Positions 2,902-63,529 of a stretch of DNA of 64,000 nucleotides are shown in pieces. Origin of the DNA: Coleophoma eucalyptorum. Its lineage: Eukaryota; Ascomycota; Leotiomycetes; Helotiales; Dermateaceae. The first letter of the stretch is position 1, and each line of letters begins with the position of its first letter. A program made the position numbers and the translations under genes. The notes below the pieces were generated by a model, which searched no databases, was not told the origin of the DNA, and saw nothing but the letters and a program-made list of their open reading frames with translations. The stretch is from contig JALRME010000055.1 of the NCBI GenBank assembly GCA_026120035.1, positions 81,169 through 145,168 of the forward strand, read 5' to 3'.

Positions 2902-3798
2902 GTACCCTCAGAGGGTACCAAGTTTTCTACATATAGGCCTATGACATTCAAGTTCAAGCGACTAAAAATCTGCGAACTCAGAAAGATTTGTATTTATTTT
3001 TATTTCAGTCATACTATATATATAACTCTCCCAAATACTCCTGGCCTACCAATTCCGAAAATCATGACTACGTCGTCGCCGCCCCTTGAATTTACAGAAG
3101 GCCCTCCTTTGACACTAAAATAGACCCTTTGACTCGCAACACCACCATCAAGGTTTTCCATCTTTTAAACTCATAAAACGATTAAGTTAGATACATTATA
3201 GACATCCAGATTTTATCATAATACTAAAACAGTATTCTCAGAGTTGTGGCGGCCAGAGCGCGCATGTCATACGCCGTCGCCACATAGGCTGATACCTCCT
3301 CCAGTTAAGCGATCAGGATTCTGGTCAGCGGCGGTGTGGTTATAGTAATCTCGGTAAAATTGTAATAAAATCTGTGGCTGAGCGAGATCTTGCCGGAAAA
3401 TTCCGCTTCCAAACCCCTCCCCGAGCGGCGCAAAAAGTGCCCTATGCCTCATAACCGTCCTACAGTATCTTGCCACTCTTTGACTTTGGTGAAGCCGCAT
3501 AAGATCTGAAATGGCCTCCGCCATCTCAACAACAATGGACAACTTGCCCTAGAATTAATCTGTAGTATGTAAGGTTTCCGATAAAATGAAGCGTCCTTCG
3601 CGTTCTGTTTCCCTTCACCATGCAAGTGGCTGGCCAGGTTACGCCACGATACAGCCTCGTGGGCGTCTACGACCACGCCCGTATTTCCTTCTCACGCTGA
3701 GTTCTTCAACGTCTCAACCTTCAAATTGCACTGCTGTGCCAATTTGCCGAAGTAGTGATACGAGTCGCTTGCTATGAGAGCGCACACGAACCTGTAGC
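2902..3798. other. Upstream region of HET-1
   Basis: No gene is supported; the short frames here (e.g. 2941-3123, minus 3267-3542) lack homology. The last ~350 bases read on the minus strand resemble the 43.1-42.8 kb sequence upstream of HET-2, including a block with CGAGGCTGTATCGTGGCG (3641-3665 region) matching CAAGGCTGTATCGTGGCG near 42961. The promoter/5' region was therefore duplicated together with the gene. Confidence 0.5.
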
Positions 3799-6700: not shown

Positions 6701-9268
6701 NNNNNNNNNNNNNNNNNNNNNNNNNNNNNNNNNNNNNNNNNNNNNNNNNNNNNNNNNNNNNNNNNNNNNNNNNNNNNNNNNNNNNNNNNNNNNNNNNNNN
6801 NNNNNNNNNNNNNNNNNNNNNNNNNNNNNNNNNNNNNNNNNNNNNNNNNNNNNTATGAGGAGGCACTTGGACCGGATAACACGTCGACACTCTCAATAGT
6901 TAACAACCTAGGTACTCTCTATTCTGACCAAGGCAAGTTAGAAGAGGCAGAGATGTTGTTCACTCGGACGCTGCAAGGCAGGGAAAAAGCACTTGGACCG
7001 AACCACAGATTAACACTCGACACGGTCAACAACCTAGGCAACCTGTACAAGAACCAAGGCAAGCTGGCGGAGGCAGAGGCGATGTTCACTCGGGCGCTAC
7101 AAGGCAAGGAGGAGGCGCCTACTCAAAATGGTCAAATTTCTAATGACGATTCTGGTTATGGCAGCCTAGAAGGCGGTTTATCTGCAGAGTCGAAAGCGGC
7201 CTTTCTTGTTGATAATGGACTAGACCTTTTCAAAGCTGGCGAATTGCTAGAGGACGATTCTGCTGATATCCAGTCAATTCTTTCCGTCCCAGATGATATA
7301 CAGTCACAAGTATCTACCTATCGAGCACAACAGGAGATTGCTGCGAGTGAGCAACTAGGGGAGCTCTTGGCACGGCATGAGGAGCTAAGCCCTCTATATG
7401 AGATTGCCCTTTCGAAAATAAGTAAAGAGCGATTTGTTGGGAATCTACGGAGGATGCTTAAGCAATACTACCTTGACCTTACTAGCACTGCCCAGACCAA
7501 TCTAGAGAAAGCTGCTGTCCAACTGGTACGCAGTCGCTGGGACAGGATCAGGATAGCACAGCAGATTACAGACATCATACATCCAGACACAGCCGACCAA
7601 GCAAAGCCAGAAATCTCAGGCATTCCAGACAAAAAGTCTTACCTCGAGTCTTAGCTTGCGAACAATCGTGGTTTTCGAGACTCTGATGGGACTCGGCCGG
7701 ATCCCCCTAAGTTCGACATTTCACTATATCACAAAGACGACCTCAGTTCCAATAGCTCAGGGACCGACAATGACGACAGCGATGATTCGGGTAGTGATGC
7801 GGGTGAACAGTACCGCAATATTAATCCTCTGGGGCTCTTTCCAAAGATTGCCGAGGTTGAGAGATTCTTTACAGGAGGTGACTCTTTTCAAAAACTGTCA
7901 ATGAATCTGCAGAGATTTCTTCTGCCAACCAGCACGTCTCCGCTGAATCAAATGCTGATGGCCGTTCCCAATGAAAACATCTGGTTCTCGGATGAGAACG
8001 ACAATTCGATCTTGAACTTATTCAAGATCGTGATTGAGGATCTCACAGAAGAGAACTGGCACTGGTGGCCTTTCAGGCCGAAAATGCGCATGCTACAAGA
8101 AAACGAGACCCGTGTTCACTGGCGATGTGTAAGTATCAAGATAAGAAAATTGATCCGCCGAAAGCTGACTATTTTCAAGCACTGTGGAACTCACTTATGG
8201 ACGGAGTTGTCGAAACCACATGCTGAGAGTTACAAGATGTTGCTAGCACGGAGAGTAAGAAATCCAGGACAAGAAATGTATATGTGCACATCCAGGAGCC
8301 GCAGAAATCTGGCAGAGGCATGGAAAGCATGGATAAGCCAGGCTGCTGGTTCCAGCGGATGGCCAAGCTCTAGAACTCAAGTATCCGAAGTACCTTTACA
8401 ACATCGTTCTCAAAATAACAGTCCACCAGCTCAGGCCAACAAGAACAATCCAGTAAAGGGCAACACTCCTGTAGGGAGTTCCTTATCAGCACCTTCTCCC
8501 ATACCAGCCACTGGTCAAAGCATTCAAATACCGATAACGTCCACAAACGATATGTTTGTATTCTTCACTGTGCAAGGGTCACGGCGTACTTTGGAACTTG
8601 CGCAGATCCAAGTGGGGCAGCAAGTTGACGACGAAACCTTCTTCGAGGAAGTCCGCATCCAATACAAGAGAAAGCGAGGATTTCTCAGATATTGGTTATC
8701 CGTATGGCAGCTTCAAGACTGTGAGTTGGTAAAGGTATGATTTTCTCCATGAATGAAAAACATGATTATCTAGGTTAATAAGAAATAGTTTGTGAAAGTC
8801 TGGGGAGATCGAGTCTTATACACTAAGAATGAACTGCCTATCGATCCTCTTTACGAGTACGCTCCAAAACCCCCAATGACAGAACTACCACACATCCATC
8901 CACACGAGTTCCAAATGGCACTGCTTCCTCATTGCAGAGAATCGTGCCTGCTCTCATCTTTCCACGATTGCGTGGAGCTTCGCAGTGGGACTACAATCTT
9001 GAGACGCATTCCCAAACGAAAGCAACCCTTGCACCTGAAAGTCAATGATATGGAGGAAGCTTGGGGTCTCAATGCTCACCATACTCCTCATCTTCTAAGA
9101 GTGTTCTTGTATCATTGTTTAGTGCTGGCTGGTACATTTGCATTTTGGACTTGGTGGCTAGTCACCCATCCGAACGACCTTCAAAATGCTTCAGTCCCCT
9201 TCACTTCCGCGGCTGCAATTATTGCTCTGTTCTGGAGTTCTTTGGCCACTCTCAAGGCACTTACATAG
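3799..9268 (+). pseudogene. HET-1: HET-NB-ARC-TPR STAND protein with C-terminal membrane module, two nonsense codons
   Basis: Exons 3799-4549, 4603-5229, 5281-8128, 8180-8734 and 8789-9268; introns of 51-54 bp with GT-AG ends. Domains in order: HET (about residues 1-250; AYAILSHTWG, YFWVDTCCIDR, WFTRGWTLQELIAP), NB-ARC with Walker A GLGGIGKTQLA, Walker B-like KWLMIYDN and GLPLA, then kinesin-light-chain-type TPRs of 42 residues broken by a 496-N gap. A linker follows, then a C-terminal module with WRCHCGTHLW and two hydrophobic helices (about 9100-9160 and 9205-9260). HET-STAND proteins trigger heterokaryon incompatibility and cell death. In-frame TAA at 5496-5498 (HET-2 has Gln here) and TAG at 7652-7654 interrupt the frame; both fit CpA to TpA change. 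Alternatively the part after 7654 is a separate gene, but the frame continues directly across the TAG. Confidence 0.8.
6358..6853. other. Assembly gap (496 N) inside the TPR array of HET-1
   Basis: The gap lies between near-identical 126 bp TPR units. The reading frames on its two sides do not agree with a 496-base length, so the true length differs. The number of repeat units is unknown. Confidence 0.98.
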
Positions 9269-9810
9269 ACATATGAGCCACCATGCAATGGCCTTGCGCC
9301 AAAACTTGACTGGCTCTGTCCATATTACCTTTTTTGATAGCGATATGGAAGGAGATGAGAGGACGCTCTCCTGCAGGCAACAGCCGCGCACCTGCCGATT
9401 GAATGTTGACAGATCCTTGCATTCTACGCATGATAATTTACACCAAAAATGCGACCGTAAACACACAACTATGGCATAAATCGTGGTGGAAATACGACAA
9501 TTCGACAATGCATCAGCCACGGCTTAGTCAGTAAATATCATGTATATAAGTCAAGTTTTTACCTACTTTTATATAGAATCTTCAGACAGTTTTTCCTGCT
9601 AACCCCTTGACCAGAAGAAGACTAGGATTCGTCAAATGTTCGAGAAACGTGTTCCTACGCCACATCCGTGACATTTTACGCCACGCATATGACCAGGCTT
9701 TAATATTCAAAAATACAGTAGTGGCTAAATAAGATATAGCGAACCCGGGCGTGAATATAGTATACTATAGTATACTAACTCGGCTTATACTAAGCACTGA
9801 AATATGTGAC
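9269..9810. other. Downstream flank of HET-1, no supported gene
   Basis: AT-rich sequence with short frames that are extensions or shadows of the last HET-1 exon. Bases 9756-9775 hold a small palindrome (TAGTATACTATAGTATACTA). Confidence 0.4.
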
Positions 9811-10173
9811 CCTCTATTCGCACCGGCGTAACTCCCGGACTTTATCATTTTCTCTCTGGAGATCTTCAAAACTTAGAACTATTTTCTTTTGGTATGAAAG
9901 CTTTCCCTAGGTGCTCCGAATCTTGAATACACCTTACTGGTCGCGTCTAAGTAGGGGGGGGAAGCCAAAGTGGCGATCAGTGGCGTGTTTGAAACGATCG
10001 ATAGCATGATCAGTAACAAGTCTTTTTCTTATTGCTAAGTGGTTATTGTTAGGAGAAATAGCTAAAGAAAATAACATATTAATAACAACTTCATAGACTT
10101 GCTAAGAAAAAATTTGTGATGCCAAAACTATAAATCTGTCTCGTGACACAGTGCGTCTCGGGACACAGGGAGT
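9811..10173 (+). repeat. Right arm and end of a pogo-like element (family X2)
   Basis: About 360 bp similar to 16391-16758: both contain a CGGTGTAACTC-like start, a GGGGAA-rich block, a conserved ACGATCGATAG(C/T)ATGATCA motif, and an end made of two related units (GTCTCG...ACACAGTGCG and TCTCGGGACACAGGGAG) followed by TTA. No matching left end was found upstream, so this is a fragment or its partner has decayed. Confidence 0.6.
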
Positions 10174-14183: not shown

Positions 14184-14599
14184 ATTAGAATAATGGTGGG
14201 GATAATCCTGCGAGAATTGTTGATTGAATTATTTTTGCAGGCAACGTCATCCGGTTTTTATCTTGAGTGCGTTCATATCTTTGAAGAATTGCTGACGAGT
14301 AAATCGGGCTGTCAAAAGGTCAGCGGATGATTTGTGGCAGTAACATAAAGGTGTGACTATGAATGTCTCTATTGCACAACGGCATGCTGACATTCATGCG
14401 GTTATCCTGACCACTAATCTTTTTGAAATGGTTAAGGTATGTCCCTGCATCGAGAGACGCAACCTGTGGCGAGACAAACCATCGGTACTTTGAATTCAGT
14501 TGATTCTAAATTTGTAAATCTATCGAAAATGCCCATATTATTGTGTCAGTCATATTGTGTGACTACTCCTGAACAGTTCAAATCCCGGCTGCTCTGAAG

Positions 14600-16220
14600 A
14601 TTACGGTCGCGTCGTCACTGGTCGGAAAGAACTAGGCTAAAAACTTTGTCCGACGATAACCAAGAATCCAGACACAAAAAACGCGTTCTTACGATAACCA
14701 GAGGGCACTCTGTGAGAATCCACGAAAAATTCAGGCTTGATTTGATCTCGTACGGAATTTTATCGCGAAATTTGGAATACGGGTCGAAGATATATACAAC
14801 TTTGACGAGACCGGGTTTCTGATAGGTATTCTTGGCCAAGCATAAACTAGTCTAGCCTAGTAATCGAGAATAGGTGACGGTTATTTAGGACGTTAATTCC
14901 CAAGGCTAGGCTGTTTCGCTATTCATTATATTTAAGGGCAAATACCACCTCTCTTCCTAGTATGAAAAACAGCATTTTCCGACCGGTTGGAGGATTGCTA
15001 TCTCTAAAAATGGCTAGACGACAAATGAAGTAACTCTAGAATAGCTTAAGCACTTTGAGAAGTTCACTTGTACGAAGATAGTAGGCACTTATCGTCTCCT
15101 AGTCCGAGATAGACATAAAAGTTACTACTCGGCCGAATTTGAGGAATACTATCGGACGAATAATATTCTTACTCTCTGTATACTACCTTATTCTTCTTAT
15201 CTACTTTAGCCTTTAGATATTAGATGTTTTGGGCCTTTAAAGAAGGCTTATAGTCGACAAATTGAGAATCTCGTCCGAACCCGAATTACTTATTGTAAGA
15301 ATCTGCCCTACCAGCCTACTTAGTTGGATTATCCAGTATCAAGTCACGTGACTCTATGATCAACATAAGCGAATATGACCAGAGTCGGAGGGGTTTCGGA
15401 CCCAGGAAGCATATAAGGGGGACATGACGTGGAAATTGGTTTCTTTCTTCTGTTTCTTCTTATATTTTTTGTGTCCTTCGTACGAGACCTATAGAATTCA
15501 GTCAATATAAGGTTATTGTGCTCCCAAACACCTCTATCCTGCCTTTGATCAAACCTGTGTCCTTACACTTATATAAGCAAGGAATCCTATATACCTACAT
15601 TTATAGAAGCATTTAAGGCTATTATAACCAAAGAAAACATCCATGGAGGTCTTAGAGGTGCTATACTTGTACCGTACGATCTAGAGGTAGTAATATCTAA
15701 GCTAGATATTATAGTATCGACTCTAACACCTGAAAATTCTCGTCTATCAATCTCTTACTCTTGGATCTCTAAAACCCTACAAACTACCAAGGACGCTAGC
15801 TCACAAACAACCCTTATTAAACAAAGGATTATACGATATCAGGATAGCTCTCTAACTCCTATTTTAGAGGCTATGGACCTATTTGCGAAAGGTATAGCTA
15901 AAGTTATACAAGAAGTTATACTTTTAAGAACAGAGCTTAAAAGGGCTCAAAAGGCTAATAATAAACGAAGCCGTCGTCGTAATACAAAATGAAAGTTAAT
16001 TTAGGAATGAGGATCCATAGATCTATAAGCTATCCAAGAGTTAGAGACTCAAAAGGATGTTCAAGACCAAATTGTTAAAGAAGAAGGCCAAAGTAGTAGG
16101 AATAAAAGACGGATAGAATCACATAATCGGCGCTGTGGAAGCTATGGACAGACTAGTCATAATAAACGAACCTGCCAGGCTAGTAGAGCTACTTCGTACG
16201 ATTCTGATAATGTATTATAG
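14600..16220 (+). pseudogene. Decayed pogo/Fot1-type DDE transposase
   Basis: The translation matches the order of pogo transposases but is cut by many TAG/TAA codons and shifts. It shows a CENP-B-type helix-turn-helix remnant (GKNxAKNF...RALCEN), first catalytic block IYNFDETGF (about 14785), LHL-S/SXWYE block, WTTNE..LEWLKHFEKF (15010-15060), the RLLVRDRHKS block and the LQPLDI block. The LTR insertion follows, then the C-terminal part (LTPILEAMDLFAKG) and a zinc-knuckle-like RRCGSYGQTSHNKRTC where the second Cys is Tyr. TAG codons sit where the family has Trp/Gln, as expected from RIP. Not functional. Confidence 0.8.
15294..15567 (+). repeat. Solo LTR, family A, inserted in the transposase relic
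   Basis: Begins TGTAAGAATCTG and ends TGTCCTTACA, a 274 bp unit with TGTAAG/CTTACA inverted tips. It is flanked by a perfect 5 bp direct repeat CTTAT (15289-15293 and 15568-15572). Removing it and one CTTAT restores the transposase sequence as seen in the copy at 36260-36290. The reverse copy is at 2628-2901. Confidence 0.9.
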
Positions 16221-16829
16221 AAGCTATTTGGAGTTCTAGTTATAAAGTTATTTGAAGTTTTATAATAGGGCGTTTGATAGGGTAGACCACTCGCTTGTAC
16301 CGTACGTTATTGTAAACTTAATCAAGCTAATTCATGCTACTTAACCCGAATCCGGAGGCTAAAATCGGAGTTTTTTATACCTATGCCGCTCTCCTCGCAC
16401 GGTGTAACTCTCGGACTTATGAATTTTCCTCCCTGAGTGTCTTCAAACTTTGGACCTATATTCTTTCGTCTGACTAGGACCTTTTCTAAGTGCTCCGAAA
16501 TTCGAACAAACTCTAGCGGCCGTTACTAGCAGAGGGGAACAGCTAGAACGGCGATCGACGTTATCAACGAAACGATCGATAGTATGATCAACCAATACAA
16601 TCCACTCGCATATTGGGTTCCTAAGGTACAAATAGCATGAGAATAGCGACATACCAATAAAACCCTCGTAGATTTGTAAATGAGAGACTTGGAATACTGA
16701 AATCGTAAGTTAAATTTGTCTCGCGACGGAGTGCGTCTCTTGACACAGGGATGGCCGTTAAAAACTTTTGTTGTGGTTAGTTTAACGATGACGTTGCTGG
16801 AGAAAATTTCGCGATCTCTGTGATCTCAT

Positions 16830-17220: not shown

Positions 17221-19662
17221 TCATTCCCGTCTTTTCTGATACCTTGTTTCCGCCTCCTGTATAGTCTGCCTCATATTCATATCCTGGTACCTTGTTTCTG
17301 CATCCTTATAGCCTGCCTTATATTCAAATCCGATAGTCTTCTCTTTATCTGCAGAATATTCTTTCCCAGGTATTCCCTGTTCTTGTTTCATTCTAGGCCA
17401 CCTCTCTGGGCGAAATTCGTGCTCATGTAGATGAAGACCTTTGGTAGCAACGATATTACGTATTGAATCTGCGAACGCTGGATTGGCACAGACTACACGA
17501 AATCAGCAAAAGTGTGATCTGTTATACTAGATACTCACCAGAAACCAAGACTCTACCCCTGCAGTTATCGTGCTGCAACTGGCTTTCTAAAGAAGCTTCA
17601 GGGCTAAGTCCGCAATATCGAGTTCGCAAAGTATCTGTGGTACTGTGATTATCTTCATCATTTTCGTCGAGTTCAAGTTCTACATTTTGAGGCTTATTTC
17701 TAACGTATCTCGTGCATCGAAACATCTTAAAATGGTTTAGCAACAGACTTGGGATAATTTAGATCAGAACTTACATAACCTTGTTCTGGTGGCGCTCCTT
17801 GCCAGCCGGATTTATACTTGAAAGTCGCCGCAGGATCTAGTCTTAGTCTAGAAAGCCGATCGCAGTCTTGTTGCAACAAGTCTTTTACCATCTGTTGTGC
17901 GGTATCGTTCTTCACAAAGTGCTTTTCATTTTCTGTGTCGTACCCAACAAACACGTCATCAACCTCCCAGAGGAGTGTTACGCGTTGTGTTTTAGCAGTA
18001 CCAGCTTCCCTACTTTCCAGCAAATGCTTGACAGTAGCAAGTTGTGCTCCGATCCCAATACCTGTGGCGTACAAGATAACTGTTCCATATTCTTCAACCC
18101 TGGGTGGCGATCCATAAGGTCCATCAATGTAAGCATTGAAACGGAGAGCTATTGGGGCAACAACTCCCTGAAATTTACTAGTCCACTGCTCCTGTAAGTC
18201 ATTGGCATTCACTGGCCAGTCTTTGATTCTATTAAGGAAGGTTTTAAAATTTCTTGAGATCATCGAGTTGTGTTCAATAAGCTTCTTCATTTCTGTCAAG
18301 TGTTCAGCATAAATTGGCTGGCCTTGAAGTTTGTATAAATAGTCATGGATCAGCTCTAACGTAGCGGGTTGTATGGCAAGCTCTCGGAGTTCTCTACTGA
18401 ATCGCTCCTGTAAGTCATCAGCGTTGATCGGCCAGTCATTGACACTATCAAGAAAAGCTTTGAAATTTCTTGAAATTGTTGACTTGTATTCGATGAGCTT
18501 CTCAAGTTTGCTCAAGTTCTTGAGGTAGATTGGCTGACCATGGAGCTTTTTGGTATAGTCATTGAAACATTTTAGGATGGCGGCTTCTGGGGACTGTGCA
18601 GCAAGCTCTTCGAGTTTATGCGTGAATCCCGCTCTGACATCAATCAGAAGCGTGACTTCTTTTGCCTTGCCGTTCTGCGTCTTCCCCCATGATGCGATTG
18701 TGAAAGGATGCGATTCAGCAAAAGACGTGTAGCTTGCTGACGGAATCCGCAACCAAATTTGTTGTCCGGCTCCAACGCGAATAGGCCTTGTCAGTTCTAT
18801 ATCGACTTTGAGAAGACCGTCCCCATGAAATATCGCGGCTTTTGCTCTCTGAAGTATGAGCATACCTGTTCTCATGCTAAACAGTAAGCAGTACATGAAT
18901 GCAGTGATAATAAATAAAATTGCTGAAGGCTTTGATACGCCGATAGGTGTCAAGTGGAGGAACCCACCTACAACGATGACAACTGCGAAGAAGACATGAC
19001 AGTAGCGGAATACTTCATAAAACGTTTGACGTACAGAAGAGAACGAAGACAGTGTAAGAACAACGAGGGCCGATGCAGCCTACGCCCATGGTGCTATCAG
19101 TAATATAAACCTGAAAAGGGAACAAGCTACAAACCGTGAAACCTGCGATACGTGGCACAGGAGATAGAATAGCTCCGCCAGTCTGGTATGGTACAAGTGC
19201 AATCACAGGGTGGATGATGCCAACAAAAAATACTACCCTTCCCAACCACCTGTGGAAAAATGCCTGGAATTCGTAGGAGATACCGAGGCTTTCAGAGAAT
19301 ATACTTTGTCTCCCACTTACAATCATGATACAAAGATTAAACGCAAAGACTCGTCCAGAGCGCCAAATCAGCAAATTACGGCTCTTCAACGACAGAGCCA
19401 AGACAACGACATTGAGAATCAACACTGCTGTCGCAAGTGCAATATAAAGAGGTGTAACAACGCCAGTTCCGCGTATGTTCACTGACAATTTCCTTCCACG
19501 GATACACCCTAGCCGCAGTTTGCGAGGAATCTGGGGGTTGAATATATATCTCCGTAAAATTACCACAGATTTTGGATAGGCTCTGGACAACAAGAACGAG
19601 AGGGGATTGTAGGCAATGAATGCTCCTAGGACGCCACAACAAGCCCAGATTGATGCATCCAT
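17221..19662 (-). CDS. Ferric-reductase/NADPH-oxidase-like flavocytochrome with duplicated insert
   Basis: Four exons on the minus strand: 19662-19135, 19079-17775, 17725-17539 and 17492-17221; introns of 55, 49 and 46 bp; 763 residues. It should move electrons from NAD(P)H via FAD and two b-haems across a membrane. The N-terminal half has several helices with haem-type histidine pairs (FHRWLGRVVFFVGIIHP and YCHVFFAVVIVVGGFLHL). Next come the FAD-binding motif SHPFTIASWG and the NAD-binding part with VILYATGIGIGAQL and LLWEVDD. Between the FAD and NAD motifs are two copies of a ~70-residue segment (GQPIYLKNLSKLEKLIEY...NDWPINADDLQE and GQPIYAEHLTEMKKLIEH...KDWPVNANDLQE), unusual for the family. 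The C-terminal tail is charged and carries a short DAETRYQ/EAETRYQ repeat. All splice joins are in frame, so the gene is probably functional. Confidence 0.8.
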
Positions 19663-39310: not shown

Positions 39311-39312
39311 TA

Positions 39313-39835
39313 ACGTCTATCCCTGCGTAGCGAAAAGCCCGCTGTGCCGAAAAAAAAAACCTTGGTACTTTGACTTTAAATATATCCAAACCTATACACA
39401 CATCGAAATCTTCTATACTTGTGTATAGGTTGTGTTATATACCTATCCCTGAACATCTTAAACACCTTTTTGAACATAATTTTATTGATGCCGTTGCCTA
39501 CGCGGCTGGTTTACAAATGGTCTTTATTTATGCTAAAACAGAGCTCCTCGACTCTAGCTCTACCATCAAGCTCTTATTACTTCGGATATTTTAAAAATGG
39601 ATCTACTAGAGCTTTAGAGCATTATCCTATACTAGATTATTTATCAGCCTTCGTGGGTTTTGTGGCGAGCAGGACTTATATGAGATCGCCACGCCGATCA
39701 GTACTTCCAATGGAAGAACTAGCCACTTATAGCTAGAGCAGGAATACGCCACCCACTTAAATATTTTTTGGTAAAATACAGCAGACATTGGCTTATATAA
39801 TCAACATCACGTGCAGCTATGGCTGATACAAACCT
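39313..39835 (+). repeat. Left arm (repeat L) of the X-family element
   Basis: About 520 bp shared with 60016-60305 plus 60534-60757, which is interrupted by a solo LTR. Shared blocks include GGTACTTT GACTTTAAAT, AAACAGAGCTC, GCCGATCAGTACTTCCAA and CTAGCCACTTATAGCTAGAGC. No convincing coding potential. Confidence 0.8.
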
Positions 39836-39964
39836 GACTTTGAAATTTCAACTGCTGACACTATCACCTTTCGTCTGGTCAGCTGGCACTATTAAAATGG
39901 ATCGATTCTTGTTCATTCATAGAAGCCTTCGCCCTTATAACTTATTTAATATTTAGCTGCCTTA

Positions 39965-42800
39965 CTAGCTTGCAGGATTTAGCTTAAATGACGATTTTGT
40001 TACATTTGACTCAGCAGGCGCAGCTTGCAACGCTTGAAGCCGATCTTCAAGTTGCTTACACCATTTCGAGGAAGGCCCTTGAACGGTTGTATATCCAGAC
40101 AATGCCCGATCGAACATCCCCTTCGCTATGTCTTTTCGACCTGTTTGTGAAAAGAGATCGCCAAACGCGAAGATAGTATTCAATGCCGGCAAATACGATG
40201 CCACAAGTTGAGGGCCAAGAGCATCCTCGTAGCCTTGCAGCGCCCGACTGTACATTGCCTCCGCTTCCGCCAGCTTGCCTTGGTTCTTGTAGAGGTTACC
40301 TAGGTTGTTGACCGTACGGAGGGTCGACGTATGCTTCGGTCCAAGTGCTTCCTCGTAGCCTTGTAGCGCCCGACTGTACATTGCCTCCGCTTCCGCCAGC
40401 TTGCCTTGGTTCTTGTAGAGGTTACCTAGGTTGTTGACCGTACGGAGGGTCGACGTATGCTTCGGTNNNNNNNNNNNNNNNNNNNNNNNNNNNNNNNNNN
40501 NNNNNNNNNNNNNNNNNNNNNNNNNNNNNNNNNNNNNNNNNNNNNNNNNNNNNNNNNNNNNTAGGTCCAAGTGCTTCCTCCCTGCCTTGCAGCGCCCGAC
40601 TGTACATTGCCTCCGCCTCCGCCAGCTTGCCTTGGTCGGCGTAGAGCAAGCCTAGGTTGTGCAAAGCCCAATCCATTCCCTCCATGTCCACCTTGTCTTC
40701 AAGTATGGCTTGCTCTTGCCTAACAGCATGCTGAAGCAACCGCCGTTGTAATACCCATGAGTCTGTTTCATTTCTCATAGGAACCTTCGAGGCGACGCAT
40801 TCTAAGGCCAGTTGTGCAAGACCTTTGTCCCACTCTTTATTAAGCACAAATACCGTCCAGCAATGTACACAGCTATGCACGCTATACCCTCCAGACCCAA
40901 AATGCTGTTTAAGAGCCCTATCTGGATCAACCAACCCGAAGCTACATAATAGAGCAACGGCTTCATTAAAGTTCAGTTCATCTTTCGTAAGCTCCTGTAT
41001 CCATTGATCGTTTGGGGAGTCTGTATGTCGAAAGAGTTCGAACCATATATCCTGTCGCCCAAAATATGCCCATAGCTTGAGCAGGCTTGCCGACGCCGGG
41101 TTCTGTTGTTGGATCTGATCAAATGTAATCTGCCATGTCGTATACAATGAGCGATCTTCATAGGAGTTTAGTTGTGGGCTTGTGGTCTGGAGCTTCAACC
41201 ACGACGCTTTATAGAGCCGAAGATAATTCGAGGAGGCCATCGATACGTGCTCTAGGTATGCACCTGCCGTGGATAGAGCAAGAGGTAGGCTGTCTAGTTC
41301 TTTAACAAGCTCTACGGCGCCAGGGTCTATCTTGTTAGTGTCATCTGAAAAGTTATATAACAAATGATATACCTTCTACAATATTCTTACGACCTGACGT
41401 CTTTGACAGGATCTCCAAGCCCTCTTTAACATCTAGCAACTTCTGAACATGGACGCGATAACCTTGACTGATTCGCGAAGATCGCGTTGTAATGATAATT
41501 GAGCCCTGGTCAGACTGGGGGAGGAATTGGCGTATATCAACTGCTGAACGGTCGAGGTTGCTAGGTATTTTGGGGTTATCATAATTGTCATAGATCATCA
41601 GCCAGCGTGTGTTCTTCTGTAGATCAAGCCAGGCCTTGACCGCGTATATCACTTGATCGAGGTTGTTTAAGTCTATGCTAGTAAGTAGACTAGTCGAAGG
41701 ATGATGCTTCAACACCTGCTGAGCGACGTCTCGAAAGCTAAGCTTGAGAGAGTCCTGATCGTTCGCATTCAACCAGAATACCGCTGTGTATTTCTCCTTG
41801 TGTCGTCTGATGTATTCGATCGCCAGTTGAGTCTTTCCGATTCCACCGAGGCCATACAGGACGATACAGGTTCGATTACTATGGCCGTGAAGCAGTTCGT
41901 GCATATTTGATAATTCCTTCTCTCTAGCAACAAACTGTGCAGCTTCAGGAAGTGACGTGAGGTTAAGCCCTACGGCAAACTGTTCGAAATCGATGCCTGT
42001 GCTGGTCAATTCTATTGCCTTAAGCAGGAATATCTAGATAGGAATTTACCCTTGTACAATTTATGGATCTCTTCCTCCAGCCGCCTAAATGCTTGGTCCC
42101 TTCTCTCGCCGTAGTTCGGCACCATAGAAACATCGAAGATCCCGATTAAACAGTAAGCTTCATCCTCTTCAATCATAGTATTACGGTGCTCTGCCCAGGA
42201 ACGCCGCTCTTTGATACTGAAATTCGGTAATGCGTCGCCTCGGAGAGCATTCTTCGCGATACCTGTAATCTCATATATCATAGACTCAAGCGACAACTTG
42301 TTCCCAAGTGGCATACCCTCTAAGCTGAAAAAGTCAATCAGCCTCGGCGCAATAAGCTCTTGAAGCGTCCAACCTCGAGTAAACCATCGACTCTTCCTAA
42401 AGGCCTCTTCCCATATCCCCTGGTCATCTGCTTCCGTGTCAGATTTGGAGACATCCGAAAGATAGGCGTAGCAGTGCGCTGCGTTCTGATACCATCTGAA
42501 CATAGAATTAATCGCCGCGCCGAGCTCAACCGCATTCTTCTTATCGATACAGCAGGTATCTACCCAGAAGTATTGTAAACCATCGGCTGCAGCCTGCTTT
42601 GCGCAGAACTGTATCTTCCTCCACCCGACCTTGCTCACGGTCTTGCTTATATCCGCGCCGGCTTCTATATCCTGAAAGCTGACCTCCTCTTGTCCCCAGG
42701 TATGAGAGAGTATTGCGTAGGCAGGGATATTGCCGCTCGTAGGTTCGCGAAAAACGATCTCGCCGTCGGGTTTATACTGCAAGAGGCGTATGAGAGCCAT
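39965..42800 (-). CDS. HET-2: HET-NB-ARC-TPR STAND (NLR-like) protein, apparently intact
   Basis: Three exons on the minus strand: 42800-42050, 41996-41373 and 41326-39965; introns 42049-41997 (53 bp) and 41372-41327 (46 bp). HET domain: residues ~1-250 (AYAILSHTWG, YFWVDTCCIDK, WFTRGWTLQELIAP). NB-ARC: ~255-560, with Walker A LYGLGGIGKTQLA, Walker B-like RWLMIYDN, GSIIITTRS and LPLALSTAGAYLE. The TPR array has 42-residue units (NNLGNLYKNQGKLAEAEAMY) and a degenerate last unit. The ~912-codon total includes a 95-N gap. No nonsense codon is seen, and both introns are conserved in HET-1. Such proteins act as cytosolic non-self receptors whose HET domain triggers cell death on oligomerisation. 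Unlike HET-1 it ends shortly after the TPRs, without the membrane module. It lies inside a TIR-bounded element. Confidence 0.85.
40467..40561. other. Assembly gap (95 N) in the TPR array of HET-2
   Basis: The frames on either side disagree by one base with a 95-base gap, so its length is approximate. It sits between TPR units that are identical at DNA level. Confidence 0.98.
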
Positions 42801-43379
42801 AGGTGAGGTTCGCGAGCGATCTCAAGGCAAACGCGATTTATTCGATTCGCGAGACTTGTTCAGTATGTCAAGGCAAGGTGTGCGAAGCTGACAGAATAGA
42901 AGCAGACATCGAAGGGCTGATCGTGGGAAAGTTACGCAGTGGTAGTCGTAGGTGTTGCGCACAAGGCTGTATCGTGGCGCAGGCGGCCTGGTCTATACTT
43001 GAAAAGGGAGACAAGCATGAGACATTCCATACCTCTTGTTCAATCGACGGTCTTTCTATTGCGAATTTGCGAAACTGCATTAATTATCACTATAGCCGTC
43101 GTAAAGCCACACGAAGAACTCTTGAGCAATTCCAAGGTTGCTACCACCAGGCCTAGCTACCATAAAAGTGGCACTTACACGCCAGCAACGCCACACCTCA
43201 CGTGCACTTATATAACACTTAACTACAACTAGCGTTATTGTAAAAATATGGTATCATATACAAGCCACTTCTTCGTTTCTTAGGATTTGTGGTGTTGTGC
43301 ATACCTCCCACTTTATCCGTATAAATTCGGCATAGGCATTCCTCTTTCTCTATAGCTTCAAAGTTTTTTAGCTTTACGT
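42801..43379 (-). promoter_or_regulatory. 5' region of HET-2
   Basis: The first ~350 bases resemble the HET-1 upstream region. Bases 43185-43266 (CGCCACACCTCACGTGCACT, TATATAACACTTAACTAC, TTATTGTAAAAATATGGTA) are repeated at 63608-63676. TATATAA at 43210 suits a promoter on either strand. No transcript start can be fixed from sequence. Confidence 0.4.
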
Positions 43380-43674
43380 CTTCTTGATAGGAGATTCACT
43401 CTATTGTCCCGAAAGCTTATTATAGGCCGATAGTCAAGTTAAAGCAGGGGGGGAACAGACTAAGTGAACTTCAATGCCAGCGACAAAACGATCGGTAGAA
43501 TCACTACATTTGTGATATATTCCTATTGAGTGCTATAAACTTGCAGAGAGATAGCTAAGGAACAATAGTAAGCTAACTATAACTTAATATATTTGCGTGG
43601 TTAATTTTTCAGACCCCAAAACCGTGAACCTTTTTCGGCACGCAGGGTTTTTCGGCACGCAGGGACGGACGTTA

Positions 43675-46086: not shown

Positions 46087-46520
46087 AACTCTACCATTGA
46101 TACTTGAGGGCCGTATTTGATTGGTTAGGCTTCTCACTATTATATATTTCAGCAAGCATTGCCACATGGAGAGAGCTGGGCCACATTTTAGATTGATTTT
46201 AATGCAAAGACCCTTCTAAATCACTGAGGCCTAGTCTTTGTGAGACTGTCCTTGTCTCGAAACCCTATGGTTGCTGATGCTACGTTGATTTTCATCTAAA
46301 ATGGTTAGCATCTGGCCAGTGGGGTACCTTGGCAAGATATGTTCAAGGATCAAGACCACGAGGTTTTGAGTTTCGCACTTTCCATTGACGGCAAGGCAGA
46401 CAGCCCATGGCTGCATTGCGGCCAATCCCAACCTCTGGAGTATGGGATCTGCCACCAGACATGGAATCAACCTTAAAATTCCTTGACTGCCATCTTTCTT
46501 CAAATGACATTTCTTTCACA
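46087..46520 (+). repeat. Uninterrupted copy of repeat Y
   Basis: About 430 bp matching both 38905-39310 and 43675-43860. It ends 70 bp before the FHA-RBR start codon. The minus strand is open over 46503-46231 (WAVCLAVNGKCETQNLVVLI), so Y may derive from a gene or from the upstream region of a duplicated gene. Confidence 0.65.
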
Positions 46521-46589
46521 AACCCTCGTCAACCAGCACTTTTACTGCTCTAGACTTCATTGGTCACACGTGGGCATATTCATAACAGC

Positions 46590-53518: not shown

Positions 53519-56500
53519 CTATGCTCTGACTCGTTTCGATACCGTGAATTTTTCGTCCGCAGCGTTTCTCTTCAGCGACAAATTTTCTACGTAAAACGTT
53601 GCATCGTCGATTACCGGAGGGTCTGTTAGGCATTTTTGCCATTCGTGGAAATTATTGAAACCAAGTGTAACTGGAATTCCGTTTCTTTTGCACAAGACGC
53701 GGTAATTATCGGACACTTTTTTCAAGTTGTTAAACTCGGCATGAAGATCTTTCAGAGGAATCCTCCTCGGTGTTTGAGAAATAATTTTCTTTGTCATAGG
53801 ATGTCTTTCATAAAAGAGAGCTTCGCCCTCTTTCAATCCAAGAAGGTTATACCTTATGGTCGTAAGCCTTTTCTCCAAGGCCAATATTGACACCTTTCGT
53901 AACTTAATTTCTGTTTGCAGTTGTCTATGCTTGAGTTTCTGTGCGTCATATTTAGTAGTATCTTCTCTGGCTTTGTTCTTGTTCATCAGTTCCAGACTTT
54001 TGCTGATCCATTTAATTTGCTCTTCGATCGATTTAGATTTTTGAGTTTCACTATTGATTTCCTCGATTAGCTTCTCAATCTGCTGCTCAAGGTCCTTTTC
54101 CATTCCTCTTCTATCTTCAGCCGTTTGTGTTGGATGCCGTACGTCAACTCGCTCCTGCCCACTGCTTTCTTTCGCAGGGAGGCTTTCTTGTATCGATGCC
54201 AGTTTTTCAGTTTTCGTATGAATTTCTTTTTGCAAGAGTTTTATTTGCTCCTCTTGGCTGCGTAGCTTTTCCCTCAACTTGTGGTCTGTATCAGCGAGAA
54301 CCCCTACTTCTTCAAGACGCTCCTCCAGGCTGTTTATATAAGTTTCCTTGTCCGCCATCTGATTCCTCACCGCGTGTATTTCTTGTATCTCCTTTTGCGT
54401 TAAATCTAGCTGTTCATTTTTCGAATCGAATTCTTTTTGCAACTGTTGCAGCTGTTCCGCTTGGCTATGAAGATTTTCTTTTGATTTTTTGTTTTCTTCC
54501 CCCGCGAGGAATTCTGCCTCTTTTAGACGCTTCTTCAGCTCTTCTATTTCTGCTTCTTTCTCAGCTGCCTGATTCATCACAGCTTGCACTCGTTGCTCCT
54601 TTTTTCTGTGTTCATCATGTAGCCTACTTGTCTGTTCTTCGAGTTCTTGAATTCTTTTGAGTTGAACTTCCTCCTTTGTTGAACGTATATTCTCATCCCT
54701 TTTAGACAGTTTCGTGATCATATCTTTGTCCGCCTTAGCCTGAAGCACTAAGTTGTCGATGTGAGCCAATTTCTTTTCATTATCCTTGCGTAGTTCTCCT
54801 AGCTCTCTGTGACTCTGCGACATTTCCGAGGTGTATTGGTCAATTTGCTCCTTTTGTAGTCCAAGCTGACTCTCGAGATGTTCAATGTGATTATGAGCCG
54901 TGTGTAGGTCTTCCCTCACACTTCTGTTCTCTTGCTCTTCCCTCAACCTCCATTCGTCTGCAATACCGTCGTCAGAGTACATGGATGAATTTTCCAGAGA
55001 TTCTACTTCGAGGTTATTAATCTTCACCATTCCCACTTCGCTGAAATCTCCGACTTCTATTCGAACAGGATCCCAGAACCGCCGAAAAAATTCCATCCTT
55101 ACGAAGGTGCTTGTAACTCCGGATGGCTCGGTCACTGCGCTGCTCAGATGCCTAAGAAACAAGTTGCGGGTGCTTCCGTCTAAGACTGCAGTTATCGGCC
55201 TACCAAAACGCTGGCTCAATCTCACTTCCGAATCATCCTGTACCTCATTTACCTGACTTTTTGTTTTCAATCCGTGCTGGACGCGACAGTGGCCATCTAC
55301 CACATGTGCCATATCATATTCCCAGAGATCCTGCGGTTTTAATTTTTTCACAAAGTTTTCACAATCTTGCCGCAGAGCTTCATTTGGCGTCATCATGTAC
55401 TGTACAGAGCGAAAGCCGAGGGTACGAGCTGTCTCAGCAAAGCGGTGAAGGTCCGTTATTGTCGGTTTCTCGGGCTGCACCTTTGTCTCTCCAGATATAG
55501 CTTTGGGCGAAAAACTGCCTAACTTGGTATAGTTCCGCATGACGTGAAGCACTAAACTCTGTAGCTGTATCTCAAAAATGTCTACTGTTCGAGATGTGAC
55601 CGTTAATTTTGAAAATACCCCGTCTTCGAGGTCTTCAACGAGCACGGCACTGCCTGTCTCTGGTTCTTCCCAAATATCCCTCAGGGCTGACCTTATATTA
55701 CGAGGACCGACTTTAAAGTCGTCGGCACTTAGAAGCAATCTTAAAATAGTTCCAAGCTCACGAAGATGAAGCGTATCCCAAGAGTAAGTTTTCAAGGTTG
55801 GGATCAAAGTTCTGATCGATAATAATCTGGCCTTAAGTCGTTCTCGTGTAGGGACATCCGTTTCTGCTGGGAAAAGTAGCTTGTTTTCTATTTGCTCTAT
55901 GATGTACTGCCTGTCTGTTGCGGATCGTCCTGGCACCCTGCCACCTAGATTTTCTACAGTCTCAGCATCTACGTCAATGAAGCGATGACCGTCTCTCAAT
56001 ATTGGCAGCCATTTGATGTAGACGTCTTTGAGACCATGCGTATTTTCCTAAATAATTATGAGCTTAGATCTCATTTACGATCGCCAGAACACTTACATAG
56101 TCCCAACCGAGCAGGCTTGTCCGATTAAGGCCCCCTTTTAGTGCAACCCACAAACCTGGAATTTCCTTCAGAGCTACCAGCGCTTTATCTAGATCTGATC
56201 GAGTCCTAATCGCTTTCAGCCCTTTTCGATTGCTTGTGGATAAGCTTAATTCGATTTGACTGGCTTCCGCCTGGCCAACCTGCGCACTCAGATTCAGGTA
56301 ATTTCTGATCTCAACTCCCGTTGGATTAGCCGTTGAGCGACTATTGCGGTATATTTGGGATAAAAGGTAACCCTGCCCGATATCTATCCCTTTAGCTTGA
56401 CATTTGACAAAAGACTGCTGAAACTTACCTTGATCATAGAGGTTCACCACCCACCAGTGCTCTTTTTGGTTACGGCGAAAGCGCGTATTACAAGCCTGGA

Positions 56501-56840
56501 CCCGTGAAAATCCATCACCGTAAGATAGCTTAATACCAGCGGGAATATTGACAAGAGAAGATGGCTGAGGAACCTGCCGCCAGGCACCGAAATGTTGGGA
56601 TGAGTTGCGATCATCCGAACGCATTGATTCAAATATTTCTCTGCTTACGACAGCATTGATGAAATTGTCTGGATCGGTTCGATTACAGCCTTCCTTGAAG
56701 ATAAAATGCAACTTATTAATCTTGTCTTTCTTCTCTCTGCGGTCAGGTCTTCCATCGTAGCTCAAACTGGATAGGCTAACTCTGACGCACGCAAGAAAGT
56801 AGTCGCTGTAGTGAGGTCTTGCCTCCATGCCGCCGTTCAT
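53519..56840 (-). CDS. DUF3723-type protein with long coiled coil
   Basis: Two exons on the minus strand: 56840-56097 and 56047-53519, intron 56096-56048 (GTAAGT...TTAG, 49 bp), 1,090 residues. The start is ATG 56840 (MNGGMEARPH); ATG 56828 or an upstream exon are alternatives. The first ~500 residues follow the fungal DUF3723 pattern: KEGCNRTDPDNFINAVVS, HWWVVNLYDQGKFQQSF, EIPGLWVALKGG, VENLGGRVPGRSATDRQYI and LLSIRTLIPTLKTY. Residues ~600-950 form a Glu/Lys/Gln-rich heptad coiled coil. The C-terminal ~120 residues are globular (RNGIPVTLGFNNFHEWQKCL) and end in a basic tail (VSKRVRA). The molecular role of the family is not known to me. It is transcribed away from the pseudokinase gene with 195 bp between start codons. 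Intact. Confidence 0.8.
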
Positions 56841-57035
56841 CTCATAGACTTCTGATACGGAATATAAAAAGGCGCTCTGCAAATAGTGGAACTTGGAGAT
56901 GCCACAGCGACAGTTTTACCGCGGTATCAGTCATCGAAAAACTTGAGGGTCATCAATGGTTAGCTGAGTGCTTTAAAGCTAACTATGATATTCAGCCAAG
57001 TACTGCGACATAATTTCCCGAGAATCTTCACACAA
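56841..57035. promoter_or_regulatory. Shared divergent promoter region
   Basis: 195 bp separates the start codons of the DUF3723 gene (-) and the pseudokinase gene (+). If both starts are right, regulation is likely coordinated. No specific factor site is evident. Confidence 0.5.
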
Positions 57036-60013: not shown

Positions 60014-60305
60014 TAACGTCTATCCCTGCGTAACGAAAAACCCACCGTGTCGAAAAAAAAACTAAGTACTTTGACTTTAAATGTCCCAAAACATGTACAC
60101 GCATCGAAATCTTCTATAACTGTGTATAAGTTATGTTACATACCTACCTTGAATATCCCAAGCACCTTCTCTGATAATATTTTATTGATGTTGTCGCCCA
60201 CGCGGTTGGTTTACGAAAGATCTTTATTTACACTAAAACAGAGCTCGTCCACTCTAGCTCTACATCAAGTTCTCATTACTTCAGATATTTTAAAAATGGT
60301 TTTAC

Positions 60306-60529
60306 TGTGGTGGGGAAAGTCCCATCAGAGCACATAGAGTTGCAGGACGTGGAATAGAGGGTAGGTCAGTAGCAGCACTACATTTCGCAGTTATCGTCAA
60401 ATGTTGGGTTGGCTAAAAAGGTATGTAAATTGTTGTTTTTCTGTAGTACAGCCCAGCTGCATTTATATATGCATGATCCTTGTGACAGAATAGAGTTGAA
60501 ATAAGGTGACAGAAGGTAACCCCGTCATA
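60306..60529 (+). repeat. Solo LTR, family C, nested in repeat L
   Basis: TGTGGTGGGGAAAGTCCC...AACCCCGTCATA, 224 bp, with TTAC directly repeated on both sides (60302-60305, 60530-60533). Removing it restores the L sequence seen at 39594-39615. Confidence 0.9.
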
Positions 60530-60757
60530 TTACCTGAGCTTTAAAGCATTATCCCCATACTAGACTATTCATCAGCCTTTGTGGGTGTTATGGCGAGTAG
60601 GGTTTATGTAAATCGCCAGGCCGATCAGTACTTCCAATCGAAAGAACTAGCCACTTATAGCTAGAGCAGGAATACGCCACCCGCTCATTTCTGTAATATT
60701 TTTGGTAAAAGACGATGCGGATTAGCTTATATAATCACTAACAATTGTAGCTGTGGC

Positions 60758-61569
60758 TGACATCTTTTGCAAAGTCGAGATGTGGCAATCTAGCATGTTT
60801 TCCACCTTACCTTTTAATTTCCCTCAAGTGGTATCCGAGAAGACCCTCTTTCACCCAGTTGTTCATCATGGCCATTCATTATATCTTGTTGTGCTGATAA
60901 ATTATGTCGCAGTATATACTAGGTCTTCTGGAATCAGCAGCAAATATGACCACACCTTTAGTCGCTTCCTTGATTGGCGATCAGAAACGAAACTGTGACT
61001 TATGGAAACAAAGCCCTTATCCGGAAACAGAATTTCCTTTTGCCTTTATATTATTCTGTGTCTTAGAGCCTGGTTTTATTCCTTCTGAGATAGCAGGTGG
61101 AAATATCTTAGTAGCCCTGGGAAAGGAGAGTGGGGGGAGGGTTGTCAAAAATTCGCTCTTCACTCGTAATGATGTTCGGTGTTGTGGATATTGCATTGCC
61201 TCTGGTGCTAAAACTTCTCAAGATTCATATCCGCCTTCGTTATGACAAGTGACAGGAGTCTTTGCGCTGTTCAGCTTATATAACTCTTCTATTAAGGGCC
61301 TGTTCCAATCTATGTACATGACGCGCGCTCGTTTGTTAATCAAACTCTTGGTAATAATCTCCTAGCACATATCCAATCCTTGAAATCTAGTTGTGAGGAC
61401 GTCGAAAGAAGGAGAAGTGGTTCTTTTAGAGTAAGCTATAATTTGGCTATGAGTTTTAGACAAGCCAGCGGATGCTCTACATAGTCCTTCCTCTCCTTCC
61501 CCAAATTGCGTTGATGCATCTACTTATTATTATATTACCAAGCTAGAGAAATAGGGGCTACCTCATGAA
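60758..61569. other. Interior of the second element, no supported gene
   Basis: Plus frames at 60753-60998 and 60904-61245 overlap and have no recognised domain. From about 61500 the plus strand begins to resemble the C-terminal part of a NACHT domain. Confidence 0.35.
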
Positions 61570-63341
61570 GTTTGTGGTGCTAGTTCACGGAATATATCGA
61601 GCATCGAACAGGGGTTTGAGGAGAGCTTAAAGCTAGCGATCCGTGCTAGCGAAGAGGATGTACGAAGATAGCTAGATGCCCATATGGTCCAGCTTCCAAG
61701 ATTCGTGGCTCGGAGTCTTGAGCTCCAAGAGAAAATCAAGACGGACATTGTTAATGCTATAGATGGGATGCATGTTGTTCATTTTGAGTACTTATTTAAT
61801 CACGCTAACTCTACTAGGTTTCTACTTGCACAGCTCCATCTCGATTCCTTAACCGGGAAGAGATCGCCAAAAGCAGTCCAAATCGCTTTGAAGAATTTGG
61901 TTAAAGGATCTGCGGCATATGAGGAGGCTATGGGATGCATCAATGGCCAAATCAAAGACCAAGAAGAGCTTGCTAAACAATTTTTGTTATGGATTACCTG
62001 TGCGAAGAGACCACTCGCTGCAATAGAGCTTCAGCATGCGCTCGGTGTTGAAGTTGGCGAGTCCCAGCTTGACGAAGCCAATATCCCAGAAATCGAAGAC
62101 ATGGTTTCTGTATGTGCTGGATTAGTTACAACCGATGAAGGAAATGGGATTATTCGATTAGTCCATTATACAGCACAGGAATACTTCAATCGAACACAAA
62201 AGCAATGGTTTCCGGATGCGCAAGTTAATATCATACAAACTTGCGTTACCTATCTCTCATTTAACGATTTCGAGAGAGGAATTTGTCAGAACGACAACGA
62301 GTTCGAACAACGGCTTCAATTGAATAAGTTCTACGACTATGCAGCACATAACTGGGGTCATCATGCACGAGAGGCTTCGACTTCCTGTCACAGTGTTATG
62401 GACTTTCTTCGGAAACAAGCTCACGTCGAGGCATCAAGTCAAGTACTAATGGCTTCTAAGCGATACCCCGATAAGGTGAAATATAGTCAAAAAGGTCCAA
62501 AGCAAATGACTGGGCTTCAGCTTGCAGCATTCTTCGGAGTTGGCAACGCGGTACTAGGCCTGCTTAATAGCAATCATCCTGATTTGAAAGATAGTTATGG
62601 TCGGACACCGCTGTCGTGGGCTGCTAAGAATTTGCACCACGTAGTTGTCCAACTCTTGCTTGAGGCAGGAGCCGATACCAACGCGCGAGGGGAAGAATAC
62701 GGCGAGTCGGCACTACATTTGGCTGCTGGTATCGGGAATAAAGCAATGGTATACCAACTACTCGAGGCTGGAGCGGAGGTGAATACCAGGGCAGGTATTT
62801 GGCTATCAAACGCAAGTACTCTGCACATGGCACCTACTAGAGGGCATGACGAGGTAGTGGGGTTGCTACTCAAAGCAAAAGCAGATGTTAGAGCTAAGAA
62901 CTATTTTGGTTGGACGGCATTGCATCGGGCGGCCAACGCGGGGCACGAAAAGGTGGTAAAACTATTACTCGAAGCGGATGTGGCAATAGTCAATGACAAG
63001 AATGAATGTGAAGCAACAGCACTACACCTAGCGGCCGGAATGGGAATAACGCTGTCGTGGAGCAATTGATTGAGGGGAATGCTGACGTTAAAGCTCGATG
63101 TTGCGATGGGTGGACGCCGTTGCACTGGGCTGCTGAACACACCCAAAAGTCAACATTGCGGTTTCTTTTTAAGACTAAGGCTGATATTGAGGCGAAGTCT
63201 CTCATTCTTGAAGCACCAAGCCAGATATCAAAATCTACGAGCTATGATCTGGACAAATTAATGGCTAGCCTGAAAGCAGATGTTAAGGGCGAGAACCCTT
63301 CTTGGTTTAGTACACGATACGCCAGCTGGGAACCTATCTAA
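61570..63341 (+). pseudogene. NACHT (C-terminal part)-ankyrin STAND gene, truncated and frameshifted
   Basis: Homology starts mid-gene: GFEESLKLAIRASEEDVRR (61614-61668), a TAG where family members have Tyr, then the winged-helix region (LLWITCAKRPLAAIELQHAL, CAGLVTTDEGNGIIRLVHYT), conserved YDYAAHNWGHHAREAS, and ankyrin repeats (TGLQLAAFFGVGNAVLGLLN, GRTPLSWAAKNLHHVVVQLL, GWTALHRAANAGHEKVVKLL). The N-terminal recognition domain, P-loop and Walker B are missing. A stretch at 61768-61815 that interrupts DGM/FLLAQLH is an intron by position and branch site (GCTAACTCT...CTAG), but its donor is GC, so it also reads through in frame. A one-base loss near 63044 ends the long frame at 63069; the next repeats (VVEQLIEGNADVKARCCDGW) continue in another frame to 63341. 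Confidence 0.75.
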
Positions 63342-63529
63342 ACAAAACATTTATAAAGCGGACACGATTCAATTGCTTTGCTGTTAAGAAGTAAATTTCG
63401 GAATGCAAAGAACTCAACATGAAGTATGAATAAATTGGTTAGCGAGCTAGTGGCACGAGGCTTAAGACCTCTAAATAGTAAATTCGTCTTAGCACGTAGG
63501 GTCTCTCGGCACGCAGGGCACGGACGTTA

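Follow-up and report, generated by a model that had tools for sequence, protein, structure and literature searches.

A HET-NB-ARC-TPR receptor gene between the inverted-repeat shells of a putative TA-targeting transposon in Coleophoma eucalyptorum

The element at the locus and its NLR gene

The window analyzed here is a stretch of 64,000 nucleotides from Coleophoma eucalyptorum (assembly GCA_026120035.1, contig JALRME010000055.1, here C52, positions 81,169 to 145,168). It harbors an element of 4,364 bp (39311-43674) with TA at both edges, and one gene, encoding a NOD-like receptor (NLR), was found between its ends. The element, its NLR domains, and the past mobility of the family described below are real. 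The parts of the element and of its insertion site are as follows.

39311-39354, plus strand: left terminal inverted repeat, starting with TA followed by ACGT; its first two bases are the TA target site
39311-39921, plus strand: left shell, a non-coding end module, its extent taken from matches to L053 and L061
39968-42800, minus strand: NLR gene HET-NB-ARC-TPR, its domains found in successive frames
40467-40561, unstranded: stretch of 95 N within the TPR part of the NLR gene; repeat number and frame are uncertain
43179-43674, plus strand: right shell, a non-coding end module, its extent taken from the match to L060
43631-43674, minus strand: right terminal inverted repeat; the last two bases are TA
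46173-46526 (and 40 nt at 46089-46128), plus strand: uninterrupted, diverged paralogue of the insertion site, from the alignment of the joined flanks

Both arms comprise 44 nt, are imperfect (82% complementary), and begin with TA followed by ACGT; the right one contains two perfect 17-bp units (43631-43664). An earlier note on this DNA, made from its letters, had described imperfect inverted ends of about 42 bp with TA, which agrees with this result. It had also noted that the two flanks together correspond to a single uninterrupted copy of a repeat, and this was recovered. Joined with one TA, the flanks align across the junction to 46173-46526 (68% over 375 columns, with 28 gap positions overall and a 2-nt gap at the junction) and have an additional 40-nt match (83%) at 46089-46128.

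The NLR gene starts with an ATG at 42800 and comprises exon 1 (42800-42050), exon 2 (41996-41391), and exon 3 (from 41344), separated by introns of 53 and 46 bp, respectively; its frame ends approximately 47 bp from the left shell. With both introns removed, the frame is continuous from the ATG to the N run, and the gene appears complete as far as it is readable, up to that run. The HET, NB-ARC, and TPR domains named in the earlier note are real, whereas the intactness it ascribed to this copy is put in doubt by the 95 N in the TPR array. For the promoter of its own that the gene was also said to have, the sole basis is the 380-390 bp between the ATG and the right shell. The three domains are united in one gene, and the sister copy on contig C65 is a frame of 893 aa without a stop. 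Among the best 120 of 7,927 protein matches, identities of at least 77% were found in Botrytis, Sclerotinia, Rutstroemia, Clarireedia, Cadophora, Lachnellula, Hyaloscypha, and Tricladium, among others; these genera belong to the Leotiomycetes.

A family of elements with common ends

The end motif TAACGTCYRTCCCTGYGTNNCGA was searched with up to three mismatches in the 45.26-Mb genome, and the reversed motif served as control. The motif gave 111 matches and the control 3, which excludes chance as the origin of the ends. Positions were listed for 100 of the 111 matches. TAACGT starts 38 of 44 inspected ends, which were chosen by similarity to the window ends. Two variants were distinguished. Variant 1, CGAAAAACCC..., is found in the window element, C65:81932, C72:57259, the C34 member, and the cargo-free C65:64451. 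Variant 2, CGAGACGCACC... or a sequence near it, is found in C52:20000, C31, the inner C49 element, C65:72885, C26, C15, and the window element at 14433; window 2947-10171 was placed here by shell similarity. The family ranges from 0.2 to 8 kb, and its small elements go down to 220-240 bp, too short for an NLR gene. Members with cargo are listed below.

C65:81932-86650: HET-NB-ARC-TPR member
C72:57259-63190: HET-NB-ARC-TPR sister member; HET and TPR parts were scanned
C34:108502-115585: NACHT_N-NACHT-winged helix-ankyrin member, a single 1031-aa frame
C46:546616-554530: member with two NACHT frames and ankyrin
C65:72885-79203: member with NACHT and HET sequence, from coordinates
C91:4931-8548: decayed member in which two segments match the window HET exon (89 and 93%)
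C52:20000-26278: HET member with a 540-aa HET frame
C31:346536-349084 (L066 698-1885, minus strand): member with a PrpF-like metabolic gene and no NLR, a 395-aa frame between variant-2 ends
Window 60014-63529, unstranded: second window element, with only a winged-helix-ankyrin NLR part at 61672-63066 (plus strand)
Window 2947-10171, unstranded: decayed variant-2 element with an unrecognizable left inverted repeat and a HET-NB-ARC-TPR gene from 3799 (plus strand)

In addition, a DUF7587 gene lies between the ends of the C49 element. NCBIfam names suggested for the ankyrin cargo scored far under the cut-offs and were disregarded. The left shell of window 60014-63529 is 83% identical to that of the window element and 86% to that of the C65 element (about 297 nt each). 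The NLR at 3799 shares 85% amino acid identity with the C65 gene over exons 1-2, and its TPR array is interrupted by an N gap (6358-6853); this gap and the N run at 40467-40561 lie within the TPR arrays of different NLR genes and are possibly collapsed tandem repeats. Downstream of the NLR at 3799, the frames 6953-7654 (233 aa) and 7901-8740 (279 aa) gave no Pfam match beyond the TPR part, and 7116-8740 is possibly a further domain or a second gene of this element. Judging from their domains, the HET-NB-ARC-TPR, NACHT-ankyrin, and HET proteins are presumably recognition and cell-death receptors.

The earlier note had proposed a search with the joined ends for further copies with different cargo, and such copies were found, carrying other NLRs, HET sequence, a PrpF-like gene, or no recognized gene. 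Pack-TYPE transposons of plants are built of non-autonomous ends around captured host sequence, and their cargo consists mostly of gene fragments. The present members likewise have common shells around unrelated host cargo; unlike in Pack-TYPE elements, at least two of the NLR frames (C65 and C34) are long and without stops. The window element very probably belongs to a family of non-autonomous, TA-targeting inverted-repeat DNA transposons with host genes between the shells.

Movement together with the cargo is evident from the sister elements on C65 (81932-86650) and C72 (57259-63190). The C65 element aligns over its full length of 4,719 nt, with 102 mismatches (97.8% identity), and the inverted repeats delimit this similarity on both sides. 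The flanks of the C65 element (332 and 350 bp) and those of the C72 element (359 and 310 bp) gave no match to each other. The same NLR cargo is thus present at two unrelated sites with end-to-end homology, which means that the element and its gene moved in the past. The differences between the sisters comprise 126-bp TPR units totaling 1,008 bp (3.5 copies at L046 1354-1789 versus 11.4 at L049 1384-2825), an insertion of 192 bp, and six small gaps (1-3 bp). The TPR gaps amount to exactly 8 units, and the frame is kept. Since the split, 6.0 synonymous and 7.0 nonsynonymous changes were counted, too few for further inference.

The C72 element is inserted in the left shell of another member. When its two flanks are fused around a single TA, they align gaplessly with L053 for 194 nt (86%), and with L051, L050, and L046 (87-89%) except for one gap that lies outside the junction; the junction TA is present in eight of nine alignments of uninterrupted relatives (two of the nine are one place). 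The inner C49 element likewise interrupts a shell, and the TA is present at its junction in 13 of 19 alignments (61-76% identity). For the C65 element, flanks joined in this manner find copies of a repeat in the window and in L064, L065, and L059, and these alignments have indels at the junction. A TA duplication is typical of Tc1/mariner/pogo elements, and it holds for the present family, as seen in the C72 and inner C49 elements. The earlier note's proposal that a non-autonomous transposon had captured and can relocate a complete NLR is supported insofar as the NLR cargo, the empty-site paralogue, the multi-copy family, and the past movement of a sister element are concerned.

Shells, capture, and rival explanations

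The cargo-free element C65:64451-65524 (1,074 bp) is composed of the left and the right shell of the window element. The window left shell is 91.6% identical to its left half over 538 aligned nt (gaps not counted), and the right shell is 90.7% identical to its right half over 482 aligned nt. A gene-carrying member consists of two non-coding shells around host DNA, with inverted repeats of about 44 bp composed of TA, ACGTCYRT, and two 17-bp units. This structure bears on the explanation that two separate miniature inverted-repeat transposable elements (MITEs) passively flank NLR genes, which are numerous in repeat-rich regions, and mimic one element. The co-occurrence of NLRs and small family elements on C52, C65, and C72 would fit such an arrangement, as would the PrpF-like and DUF7587 genes between such ends. 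It is already contradicted by the half shells, because the 1,074-bp element is represented by its left half alone on the left side of the window element and by its right half alone on the right side, and the end-to-end duplication on C65 and C72 also speaks against it.

The positions of the ends in the genome are a further point against a passive arrangement. Of 27 inward end pairs, 24 had no other end between them (C52:53081-58205, C49:91755-98854, and C72:68190-68629 were dropped for an internal end), and 10 of these 24 were at least 3 kb long (counted by hand). C46:546616-554530 and window 60014-63529 are outside the 10, since one end of each is beyond the listed motif matches. A NACHT or NB-ARC domain is enclosed by five of the 10 pairs. 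When the 10 pairs were shuffled on the same contigs, the mean was 0.84, and five were reached in 46 of 100,000 trials; under a uniform model, 0.14 would be expected. The lengths assumed for the shuffles were 537000 for C26 and 780500 for C15 (actual lengths 537399 and 819623, respectively). HET sequence was found in three further pairs of the 10 (C52:20000, C26, and C91), and these HET counts are lower bounds (150 of 254 candidates scored). Within 5 kb of NLRs, 15 ends point inward and 4 outward (hand count; two-sided p 0.019, the sides not being independent). Taken together with the shell structure, a passive arrangement is very improbable.

The left shells of the window and C65 NLR elements are 91.0% identical over 547 nt (gaps not counted; 87.4% by BLAST with gaps counted). 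The NLR genes are oppositely oriented, and exons 1-2 have 1.26 synonymous (dS) and 0.129 nonsynonymous (dN) substitutions per site (451 codons). Because shells of 91% identity surround inverted genes with a dS of 1.26, capture probably occurred more than once, and independent capture of both NLRs is the simplest reading of these sequences. Divergence at synonymous sites is much greater than that of the shells. By analogy with Pack-TYPE elements, NLR genes would have been captured repeatedly into existing shells. Alternatively, an NLR and a shell were joined once and descended together, the differences being due to an internal inversion and gene conversion between shells. This history, which overlaps with the preferred one, would account for the recurrence of the HET-NB-ARC-TPR gene family in three shell contexts; the contrast between shell identity and dS and the quite different NLR types in other members speak against it, and we regard it as unlikely, although it is the strongest of the competing explanations. 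The low dN/dS reflects past selection on the NLR protein, not the time at which this selection acted. A related sequence at C8:410119-412301 (79% amino acid identity over query 249-692), on a contig without a listed end, is too dissimilar for it to count as the donor.

As a source of transposition, DDE_1 genes were considered (104 matches of genes and fragments in the genome); "pogo-type" here denotes the Pfam DDE_1 domain and not the TcMar-Pogo family of PMC4188875. Two DDE_1 elements with both ends seen (C78 and C87) start with TA, ACGT, and then two 17-bp units; their self-match at a shift of 17 (0.74 and 0.65, respectively) is the best of shifts 5-24, and the window right end has 0.74. The family displays the features of ACGT-ended Tc1-Mariner elements, namely terminal ACGT (at both ends of the window element), 44-bp repeats with direct units (weak in the window left end), and, at the C72 and inner C49 elements, the TA duplication. 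A DDE_1-type transposase acting in trans is therefore a likely candidate. Such a pogo-type transposase would bind the 17-bp units, cut at ACGT, and reinsert the whole unit at a TA in a cut-and-paste manner. One further element of the window is relevant here.

Window 14433-16761, unstranded: variant-2 end pair with a decayed, apparently 5'-truncated pogo-type (DDE_1) fragment

This piece was rejected as the autonomous partner: its best matches on C87, C59, and C11 have 76-80% identity, the C87 end motif differs, and its 5' part is apparently gone. The Tc1 (DDE_3) transposase in C52:20000-26278 was rejected as the driver, too, since it has its own 29-nt ends (L055 5871-7222). Inside the pogo fragment lies a repeat of approximately 275 bp (15293-15567), and 39 of 65 matched rows are other places with this repeat. 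In decayed DDE_1 copies throughout the genome, TAG is frequent among the stops, a pattern expected from repeat-induced point mutation.

The shells may form an NLR-shuttling system, which repeatedly captures complete receptor genes (HET-NB-ARC-TPR, NACHT-ankyrin, and HET) and redistributes them, with changing TPR length; transposition would then diversify the allorecognition or immune repertoire of the fungus and make it vary by presence and absence. We propose this tentatively, as a possibility falling somewhat short of even chances. Several observations count against the preferred reading of a transposon family with NLR cargo. Regarding the transposase, none is carried by the window element, no intact DDE_1 transposase with the CCCTGCGTGCCGAAAAA unit was found (with 100 of the 111 end matches listed), and the DDE_1 pieces between family-type ends (window 14433-16761 and C26:531450-536999) have 7 TAG stops each. 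The 17-bp periodicity appears clear in some ends (0.65-0.74) and weak at the window left end and in L066 (0.52). The TA duplication, which stands for the C72 and inner C49 elements, is not visible at the junction in the window element's own paralogue (0/1), and the TA is present in one and absent in four of five C65 junction alignments. Gene conversion between shells could mimic a recent shell ancestry. With regard to the cargo, two nonsense codons interrupt exons 1-2 of the C72 copy, so some of it is dead, and non-NLR cargo exists (PrpF-like on C31, DUF7587 on C49). Specificity for NLRs is judged from positional shuffles alone, the comparison with MFS_1 having scored 9 of 1068 candidates. Finally, of the 121 clustered NLR loci, five have a listed inward-pointing end within 12 kb on each side; the other 116 lack such flanking ends, so most NLRs are not seen moving in this way, and the transposon route is seen for a minority of the NLRs of this genome.

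Relation to Starships and other mobile elements

The region around the window element contains two further genes of interest.

17727-19662, minus strand: ferric reductase, with FAD_binding_8 and Ferric_reduct domains in two frames
53519-56882, minus strand: DUF3723 gene, in two frames of 826 and 272 aa

NLRs, PLPs, FREs, and DUF3723 proteins are named as Starship accessory genes in PMC12506042. With its ferric reductase, this part of C52 is possibly what remains of a Starship. The window NLR could then be an accessory gene of a giant Starship, to which the mobility would belong, and the small shells would be later, irrelevant insertions. The ferric reductase, the DUF3723 gene, and the further NLR sequence of the window agree with this, and DUF3723 is also present on C72 (a further frame, L060 8788-9900). 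On the other hand, the C65/C72 homology ends at the small inverted repeats, and the window NLR is bordered on one side by the left half of a cargo-free element and on the other by the right half, not by complete ones. No DUF3435 captain was found among the window frames scanned, some frames being unscanned and the search not being genome-wide. The 4.4-kb element itself has inverted repeats and TA instead of the direct-repeat borders and large size of a Starship, and no DUF3435 tyrosine recombinase was found in it. Overall, Starship cargo is an improbable explanation, if less so than the passive MITEs. The preferred reading of mobile shells would not compete with nesting inside a Starship, which may apply here.

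Starships are also fungal mobile DNA with NLR genes; in contrast to the small TA elements described here, they are large (143 kb and 170-196 kb for those described) and possess a tyrosine recombinase (PMC9594970, PMC12134995, PMC12506042). ToxTA (formerly ToxhAT) of Bipolaris, Pyrenophora, and Parastagonospora is likewise non-autonomous, with a TA duplication, an empty site with one TA, 74-bp inverted repeats, a gene useful to the fungus, nested Tc1 insertions, and a location within larger mobile DNA (PMC12506042). It is nested in Horizon and Sanctuary (PMC12506042), and the present elements may, by comparison, be nested in Starship remains. As described there, ToxTA is one element of about 14 kb with one effector gene, whereas the present family has many members of 0.2-8 kb, varied NLRs, and cargo-free shells. 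The Mariner-n_SS Tc1-Mariner elements and MITEs of Sclerotinia share the ACGT termini, the TA duplication, and inverted repeats (36-70 bp) with the present family (PMC4188875). In that study, the transposases are of the HTH_psq/HTH_Tnp_Tc5/DDE type, direct repeats within the inverted repeats are named as the transposase sites, and ACGT ends are given for all its families except TcMar-Pogo (PMC4188875). They are 1.4-2.3 kb transposase elements or MITEs, and the word NLR is absent from the main text (PMC4188875).

The closest precedents are therefore ToxTA and the NLR-carrying Starships. Cargo-carrying TA elements and mobile NLRs are each known separately from these two, and multi-copy small TA shells with several NLR classes were not found described. 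Among the papers listed in the literature searched (titles and starts of abstracts, with subscription papers and preprints outside it), there was no description of inverted-repeat TA elements carrying NLR genes.

Fungal genome defenses against repeats should conflict with the duplication of NLRs, as stated in PMC12258605. It is an open question how NLR and het genes are acquired and lost in fungi despite these defenses, and the shell family would give a concrete, testable route. The difference of 8 TPR units between the C65 and C72 sisters shows that the repeats of a receptor vary in number around the time of movement or later. Beside Starships, shell transposons would add a second vehicle for NLRs.

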